Origin: Pseudogemmatithrix spongiicola
GTDB lineage: Bacteria > Gemmatimonadota > Gemmatimonadetes > Gemmatimonadales > Gemmatimonadaceae
Length of the DNA: 64,000 bases
Assembly (NCBI RefSeq): GCF_030623445.1
Contig: NZ_CP130613.1
Coordinates: 2,914,001-2,978,000 of the forward strand
Direction: 5' to 3'
The position numbers were made by a program, and so were the translations under genes. This document shows, piece by piece, positions 36,040-45,785 of this stretch. A model generated the notes under the pieces. The model saw only the letters and a list, made by a program, of their open reading frames with translations. It searched no databases and was not told the DNA's origin. Position 1 is the first letter of the stretch; each line of letters begins with the position of its first letter.

Positions 36040-36510
36040 TTACGCGTCTTCGTGGATCGTGACGAGTTTCACGATCTTCAGCTTGCGCGTGCGGCCGGGC
36101 AGCTTGAGCATGGCCACTTCGCCGACCTTCTTGTGCAACAGGGCGCGGCCGATCGGCGACGACATCGTCACCTGGCCGTCCTCGAAGTCCTCGGCGTCGC
36201 CGAAGATCAGGTAGTAGTCCTCGCGATCCTTGGTGTCCTGGTCCTCGACCGTGACCTTCGAGCCCATGCCGACGGCGTCGGTCGCGATCTGCGACTCGTC
36301 GATCTGCGAGAGCTTCGACAGCCGCTGCGTCAGGTGCCCCAACCGCGCCTGCACGAACTGCTGGCGTTCGAGCGCGGCCTTGTACTCCGAGTTCTCGCGC
36401 AGGTCGCCGAGTTCGACGGCTTTGCGGATCTCGTTGGGGAGCGTGACGTTGAGTTCGAAGCGGAGCTTCTCGGCTTCGTCGGTGAGCTTCTGCTTGAGCG
36501 CCTCGATCAC
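36040..36510 (-). CDS. greA: Transcription elongation factor GreA
   Basis: Secondary-channel factor that makes backtracked RNA polymerase cleave its transcript. The 156-residue protein has the N-terminal coiled coil with the tip acidic residues in LGDLRENSEYKAALERQQFV (the conserved Asp/Glu pair), and the C-terminal FKBP-like domain ending SSPIGRALLHKKVGEVAMLK. The start is GTG at 36510. An intrinsic terminator faces the same way just upstream (36548-36598), leaving a leader that could be prematurely terminated. It is convergent with the TlpA-like gene. Confidence 0.95.
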   Translation of the reverse strand: MIEALKQKLTDEAEKLRFELNVTLPNEIRKAVELGDLRENSEYKAALERQQFVQARLGHLTQRLSKLSQIDESQIATDAVGMGSKVTVEDQDTKDREDYYLIFGDAEDFEDGQVTMSSPIGRALLHKKVGEVAMLKLPGRTRKLKIVKLVTIHEDA

Positions 36511-36547
36511 GGCGCAGCCCTCGGATATAAGGATGAAGCGGGGGTGG

Positions 36548-36598
36548 AAAAAAGACCCGACGCCCGACCTAGAGGGGCCGGGCGCCGGAGGGGTCTTT
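36548..36598 (-). terminator. Intrinsic terminator in the greA leader
   Basis: On the minus strand: AAAGACCC, then GGCGCCCG, loop, CGGGCGTC, GGGTC and a run of six T. The two nested stems (AAAGACCC/GGGTCTTT and GCGCCCG/CGGGCGT) plus the T-run are a textbook Rho-independent stop. The only gene downstream on that strand is greA, 38 bases further, and no minus-strand gene lies upstream before the divergent MBL gene. It must therefore end a short leader or small RNA. Confidence 0.85.
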
Positions 36599-36724
36599 CC
36601 GCTTCGAGAAAGCTAGCCCCGCGCAGGCGCCGGGGCAATCATCTCTCGGGCGAACGGCCTAGCACGATTCAGCGGTGCGCGTCCATCCGCTTGGCACGTG
36701 GAACGGCGGCATACCTTTCCCTGG

Positions 36725-37522
36725 ATGCTGCAAGTCATTGAACACGGCGATGTCCGCGAACTCCGGCTCTCCACGTGGAAGAGTCGTCTCGCCGGATACG
36801 GCGTGAGCGCGTTCGTCGCGCGCCACACGCTGATCGACGCGGGATTTCCTGACGCCGCGCCGGAGCTGGCCGCCTACGTCGATGCCCATCCGGTCGACGG
36901 TGCCGTCCTCACGCACGGGCACGAGGACCACAGCGGTGGTGTCGCCGCGCTGCTCGCGCGCGGCGTCGGCGTGCACTGCGCGGCCGAGACCGAAGCGGAG
37001 ATGCGCCGCGTGGAACGCGTCGGGATGTATCGGCGGCTGACGTGGGGGAGTCGGGTGAGACTTACGCTTCCGCTGCACGTGTTTTCGCCATCCCCGGCCT
37101 TGCAGCTCAAGCCGACCCCCGGCCACTCGGCGGACCACCACATCGTGTGGGATGCGGAACGCGGCACGGTGTTTGGCGGTGACCTGTTCATCGGCGTGAA
37201 GCTGCGCCTCGCGCATCACGACGAGCAGATGCGGCCGCAGGTCGTCGCGCTCCGGGAGGTGGCCTCGTGGCAACCCGAGCGTTTCTTCGACGCGCACCGG
37301 GGGCTGCTGCCCGATCCCGTCGGTCAGTTGCGGGCCAAGGCTGACTGGATCGAGGAGACGATTGGGCGCATCGAAACGCTCGTTGGCCGGGGCTGGCCCG
37401 ATGCGAGGATCCGCGACGAGGTGTTGGGCGCCGAGGATCCGACCGGCACGTGGAGTTTCGGGGCCTATTCGAAGGCGAATTTCGTACGGAACGTCCGCGA
37501 GACGATGCCACAGGCATCCTAG
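36725..37522 (+). CDS. MBL-fold metallo-hydrolase
   Basis: A 265-residue cytoplasmic metallo-beta-lactamase-fold hydrolase. Metal motif THGHEDHSGG (H-x-H-x-D-H) is intact, followed by the second-site residues in PTPGHSADHHIVWDAERGTVFGGDLF and a late His in FFDAHRGLLPDP. A C-terminal helical part follows (ADWIEETIGRIETLVGRGWP), as in the glyoxalase-II/LACTB2-like branch. The substrate is unknown. The ATG at 36725 gives a normal N-terminus (MLQVIEHGDVRELRLST); a GTG at 36698 would add nine residues of little value. The DUF2911 gene follows 37 bases downstream. Confidence 0.88.
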   Translation: MLQVIEHGDVRELRLSTWKSRLAGYGVSAFVARHTLIDAGFPDAAPELAAYVDAHPVDGAVLTHGHEDHSGGVAALLARGVGVHCAAETEAEMRRVERVGMYRRLTWGSRVRLTLPLHVFSPSPALQLKPTPGHSADHHIVWDAERGTVFGGDLFIGVKLRLAHHDEQMRPQVVALREVASWQPERFFDAHRGLLPDPVGQLRAKADWIEETIGRIETLVGRGWPDARIRDEVLGAEDPTGTWSFGAYSKANFVRNVRETMPQAS

Positions 37523-45714: not shown

Positions 45715-45745
45715 CCGGCGCTAGCCGCGCGCACCGCGGGACGGG

Positions 45746-45774
45746 GGCCGCACGCTTGCAGGCGTGCGGCCTTT
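45746..45774 (+). terminator. Intrinsic terminator after the HhH-repeat gene
   Basis: GGCCGCACGC (45746-45755) and GCGTGCGGCC (45762-45771) pair perfectly around six bases, followed by TTTGTC. It closes the unit 44595-45714; the next gene starts 12 bases beyond. Confidence 0.8.
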
Positions 45775-45785
45775 GTCGTCTCTTT

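Follow-up and report, generated by a model that had tools for sequence, protein, structure and literature searches.

Introduction

The general transcription factor GreA competes for the secondary channel of RNA polymerase, and to our knowledge the regulation of its own gene is poorly understood. The greA leader of Escherichia coli, together with the GraL RNAs, was reportedly described by Potrykus et al. in 2010. According to Dylewski et al. 2019 (PMC6829880), our source for the comparison with GraL, the E. coli transcript reaches a terminator about 19 nt from its start, about one third of transcripts read through, and the RNAs that stop there, 37 to 59 nt long, are GraL. GreA represses its own expression through this leader terminator, which requires catalytically active GreA and for which the evidence is in vivo only (PMC6829880). 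In a survey of leader terminators by Naville and Gautheret 2010 (PMC2965389), greA/rnk takes seventh place among the gene families that carry them; the available part of that survey names Proteobacteria, bacilli, and Clostridia for these leaders and does not name Gemmatimonadota.

Because that part of the survey already reports other examples, the leader from the Gemmatimonadaceae described here is not the first of its kind beyond E. coli. Attenuated greA leaders are themselves known, and what is new is their occurrence in another phylum, together with an unusually high conservation within one family. The leader lies in a 64-kb stretch of Pseudogemmatithrix spongiicola DNA, called the window below. 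We put the probability at roughly 80% that it holds a leaky, promoter-proximal intrinsic terminator that lowers greA expression.

Results

Hairpin and U-tract upstream of greA

The genes and terminator parts at the locus are as follows.

36510-36040, minus strand: greA, GTG start, with Pfam domains PF01272 and PF03449 (GreA_GreB and GreA_GreB_N); the start aligns with the starts of relatives
36553-36548, minus strand: U-tract of six T (T6), read from the sequence; predicted 3' ends of the leader RNA
36589-36556, minus strand: core terminator hairpin of 14 pairs, TCCGGCGCCCGGCC-CCTCTA-GGTCGGGCGTCGGG, with covariation in 84 relatives
36725-37522, plus strand: divergent gene with a metallo-beta-lactamase fold (PF00753), bounding the intergenic region

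The first-pass annotation had placed a strong Rho-independent terminator pointing toward greA at 36548-36598, with a T6 on the minus strand 38 nt before the GTG. Its coordinates and counts are correct, with the T6 at 36553-36548 and the GTG at 36510. The hairpin core has 11 G-C among its 14 pairs and a loop of 6 nt, and the stem is lengthened by outer pairs, AAAGACC/GGTCTTT, to 36598-36551. On the minus strand, TCTTTTTTCC comes directly after the 36589-36556 stem, so that the window has the U-tract of an intrinsic terminator directly 3' of the stem (TCTTTTTT). It also has the stable, G+C-rich hairpin of this class, a 14-bp stem in a segment (36540-36610, minus strand) with a minimum free energy of -35.7 kcal/mol and a z score of -3.6, which was equalled by none of 200 shuffles. 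The predicted 56-nt transcript folds at -34.8 kcal/mol (z, -3.9).

The same annotation had held that there is no minus-strand gene upstream to terminate, and this was borne out, the neighbor that begins at 36725 being divergent. The idea that the hairpin is the 3' terminator of an upstream gene was rejected for the window, where the neighbor is divergent and a predicted promoter lies in between; by the same two features, the hairpin is a same-strand terminator that does not belong to the upstream gene, as in other greA leader terminators. Among relatives, the hairpin is present with the upstream gene divergent (48) or co-directional (35). A miscalled greA start, with the hairpin actually lying in coding sequence, was rejected too, since no start codon precedes the GTG in its frame and the GTG is aligned with the starts of all relatives.

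When a simple scanner was run over 28 to 46 kb, the greA-leader hairpin was among three strong terminator-like sites. By count alone, the scanner found 6 sites against 6.0 expected by chance, and it is therefore stem length and conservation, not the number of sites, that set the greA hairpin apart from chance. With our own scanner, a score of at least 26 was reached by only four sites in the window. The greA hairpin is the only strong one in the leader of the gene at which it points, the placement of the site at 45740-45777 being uncertain (mechanical gene calls). That site, on the plus strand, is a 17-pair terminator-like hairpin with a T-rich tail, and it is not clearly behind any called gene.

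Conservation across Gemmatimonadaceae and beyond

Comparison of related greA leaders for conserved terminators, the check that the first-pass annotation had proposed, came out in its favor. The leaders came from genome contigs and from genomes that share the genus, family, order, class, or phylum of the window, giving 165 distinct sequences, and the 107 with a GreA identity of at least 64% to the window protein form the Gemmatimonadaceae-level set. A terminator was called at a score of at least 25 within 150 nt of the start codon. A strong terminator by this definition was found in 100 of the 107 leaders, versus about 1% in controls (0.9% for random windows from these loci, 1.8% for Markov shuffles), and in the family leaders the stem ends a median of 32 nt before the greA start codon. 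Leaders of other genes at the same loci gave a terminator of that score in 5 of 101 cases; with strand identity checked, three of the five are the greA hairpin seen from the opposite strand, and one sits just behind a same-strand gene. The E. coli greA leader, which served as the positive control in the same scan, scored 30.4.

About seven family leaders have no such terminator. In sister families, outside the 107, 21 of 58 leaders have a strong one, and some of these are terminators of tRNA or other upstream genes. Since about seven family leaders and many from sister families do without it, a leader terminator is no general requirement for greA control in the phylum. Several leaders from outside the 107 (L124, L138, L168, L169, L184, L185, and L188) have a -10 box, hairpin, T-tract, and greA in the same order, with a different stem.

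Other upstream regions look different. The leader hairpin is absent from L119, L123, L126, L127, and L129 of sister family f3 and from L131 and L193 of f2, and these hairpin-free relatives have a -10-like TAGGATT or TAGCTT 5 to 20 nt ahead of the greA start; their greA mRNA may thus be leaderless or have a very short leader. L103 and L112 carry tandem repeats of the type TGATTAGTGATTAG upstream of greA in place of the hairpin.

A conserved promoter close to the hairpin

A stock promoter scan found no greA promoter. The scan missed it because the promoter departs from TTGACA/TATAAT, and only the alignment of relatives recovered it, through a two-block EM search on 100 family leaders. The resulting elements in the window are as follows.

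36638-36633, minus strand: -35 element of the predicted greA promoter, TTGCCC (two-block EM)
36615-36610, minus strand: -10 element, TAGCTT, after a 17-nt spacer (two-block EM)
36604-36602, minus strand: predicted transcription start, near 36603, about 7 nt downstream of the -10 element

Across the family, the -35 block has the consensus TTGCC and 5.4 bits (1.8 in shuffles), the -10 block reads TAnnTT with 7.3 bits (0.9 in shuffles), and the spacer is 17 nt in 84% of leaders. The window site, with a score of 11.7, is among the best, and 91% of the promoters in the family score above the 95% null level. Judged by these elements, the conserved promoter upstream of the greA hairpin is of the sigma-70 type. 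The end of the -10 element is a median of 12 nt from the stem in the family, so near that the predicted transcript starts almost at the hairpin. With the start site so predicted, a terminated leader RNA would measure about 45 to 55 nt, and about 50 to 56 nt in the window. A literature search found no published start-site study of Gemmatimonas.

This geometry bears on the possibility of a switching attenuator or riboswitch, in which a ligand, a ribosome, or a protein would favor an antiterminator that competes with the terminator. Naville and Gautheret, in the available part of their work, report that the leaders of greA and rnk have antiterminators in the species they modeled (PMC2965389). In Gemmatimonadaceae, we consider such a switch very unlikely. 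With the -10 element ending so close to the stem, about 5 nt of leader lie between the inferred start site and the stem in most species, and the antiterminator seen in other members of the greA leader class has no counterpart here. In the window, the segment that runs through the 5' arm folds weakly (-5.9 kcal/mol; z, +1.0), and there is neither an Rfam match nor a conserved leader open reading frame. A search of the whole window with Rfam 15 gave nothing above the gathering score, and a relaxed threshold gave chance-level matches only. A leader peptide was rejected as well, since start codons that fall between the predicted transcription start and the stem occur in 30 leaders against 21.5 expected, little more than chance, and are mostly out of frame.

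Covariation of the stem and its use elsewhere

An alignment of 84 leaders gave a 13-pair helix in which 87.8% of cells are paired. Eight of the 13 pairs have changed on both sides with pairing kept, and double-change cells number 70, whereas shuffles gave 31 and sliding the partner gave no more than 27. Within the family, the inner arms, CGCCCGGCC/GGCCGGGCG, hardly change, and the loop varies in sequence and in length (3 to about 15 nt). Two positions of the stem often hold G-U pairs.

Nearly invariant arms would also suit an operator, an inverted repeat bound as DNA by a protein just downstream of the promoter. That is extremely improbable given the spacing of the arms, whose range would not be tolerable for a dimeric DNA-binding protein, and given the frequent G-U pairs, which keep the RNA paired and break the symmetry of the DNA; the T-tract, moreover, is conserved.

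The pattern of constancy likewise weighs on the idea of a trans-acting small RNA, with control of greA secondary. The predicted termination would indeed give rise to a short, stable RNA, and in E. coli, nudE is a trans target of GraL (PMC6829880). Here, however, the sole invariant sequence is buried in the stem, and the loop and 5' tail vary in length and sequence, so that no conserved seed is exposed. In addition, a search of the whole genome from which the window comes gave no match to Hfq (PF17209), and the same search finds Hfq in control genomes. We therefore hold a principal role in trans to be unlikely.

A covariance model of the element had its best genome match in the greA leader in 40 of the 44 family genomes with a located greA, and the element is absent from the other four (genus g7 and one genome of g5). 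About 13 of the 16 secondary matches inspected sit 16 to 55 nt after a same-strand stop codon, like ordinary 3' terminators. A pattern search found the inner-arm sequence once in each of five genomes. The stem as a sequence signal specific to greA was rejected, the similar stems found elsewhere by the covariance model being mostly ordinary 3' terminators. On this comparative evidence, the conservation of the stem is in part that of a preferred terminator stem of Gemmatimonadaceae and not that of a special recognition site. Because the stem serves as a 3' terminator in the same genomes, it presumably serves termination in the greA leader also; its reuse thus makes a special role in recognition less likely and a genuine terminator more so. 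The preferred stem, GCGCCCGGC/GCCGGGCGC (L197-L212), occurs in many 3' terminators and could help to annotate transcript ends in Gemmatimonadaceae.

A run of at least four T near the stem was found in 89 of 100 relatives. Family T-tracts are mostly T4, often 3 nt off the stem, and the T6 of the window is stronger; the prevalence of such modest tracts fits leaky termination. It would also fit an insulating or stabilizing 5' stem-loop of the greA mRNA, in which the T-rich stretch is an unstructured ribosome-docking spacer and termination does not occur. Known mRNA-stabilizing stems sit where this hairpin lies, almost at the predicted 5' end of the transcript, and many relatives have only a T4 after a 3-nt gap. 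Yet a T-run right behind the stem has been retained despite G+C-rich genomes, and the same combination of stem and T-tract works as a 3' terminator elsewhere in these genomes, which makes a purely stabilizing stem-loop improbable.

Discussion

We thus favor a leaky intrinsic terminator as the function of the hairpin. Comparison of the leaders establishes a fixed order of promoter, hairpin, U-tract, and start codon, along with the covariation and family-wide conservation; from it we infer the start site, partial termination, and a limiting effect on GreA. Transcription would begin near 36603 on the minus strand, and the first RNA made would fold into the G+C-rich hairpin. At the U-tract (36553-36548), part of the RNA polymerase would stop, releasing an RNA of about 50 to 56 nt, and the remainder would read through to greA, whose start codon lies 38 nt further on. 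A terminator so placed may both lower and buffer the amount of GreA. The window terminator looks strong (T6, -35 kcal/mol), and therefore, if greA is expressed, read-through must be substantial or regulated.

Feedback of GreA on its own synthesis via the leader terminator is plausible by analogy with E. coli, and it is speculative that catalytically active GreA raises termination here as reported there. A more specific proposal is that a promoter-proximal terminator by which GreA limits its own synthesis arose in Gemmatimonadota separately from that of Enterobacteria, with active GreA raising termination by clearing or changing complexes paused at the first hairpin. We regard this as doubtful, although, if true, early termination would have arisen convergently as a feedback sensor for backtracking of RNA polymerase. 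Promoter, hairpin, and U-tract fit within about 90 bp, which makes the leader a compact test bed for GreA-dependent termination in vitro.

Comparison with known leaders and terminators

Ordinary 3' terminators of Gemmatimonadaceae share the preferred stem and a T-tract with the greA leader; they lie behind stop codons, whereas the greA hairpin lies between promoter and start codon. The greA/rnk leaders of Naville and Gautheret resemble those described here in that terminators occur upstream of greA in several groups, with sequence clusters that differ by lineage, to go by the available part of the survey (PMC2965389). In that same part, their leaders have predicted antiterminators, for which the start predicted here leaves no room (PMC2965389).

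The likeness to E. coli GraL drawn by the first-pass annotation held for layout and failed for sequence. In both cases, an intrinsic terminator lies in the greA 5' untranslated region close behind the promoter, with no long antiterminator region. The E. coli leader has a T7 terminator and a divergent upstream gene, dacB, and the locus here likewise has a divergent neighbor and a predicted short RNA of about 40 to 60 nt, so that the GraL layout, with an RNA of about 37 to 59 nt, is matched by prediction. The hairpin lies a median of 32 nt before the start codon in the family and 102 nt before it in E. coli, one conserved sigma-70-type promoter stands in place of two overlapping promoters, and Hfq was not found in this genome. 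The stems GCTGACCTGGG/CCCGGGTCGGT and CCGGCGCCCGGCC/GGTCGGGCGTCGG show no correspondence. Since layout and size agree and sequence differs, the leader is a parallel to GraL and not a demonstrated homologue. Such a parallel suggests that damping of greA by early termination may have been favored repeatedly in evolution. That a distant phylum has a terminator at the same place, unrelated in sequence and kept in more than 90% of the species of one family, argues for a recurring way of setting GreA levels and not for a quirk of E. coli.
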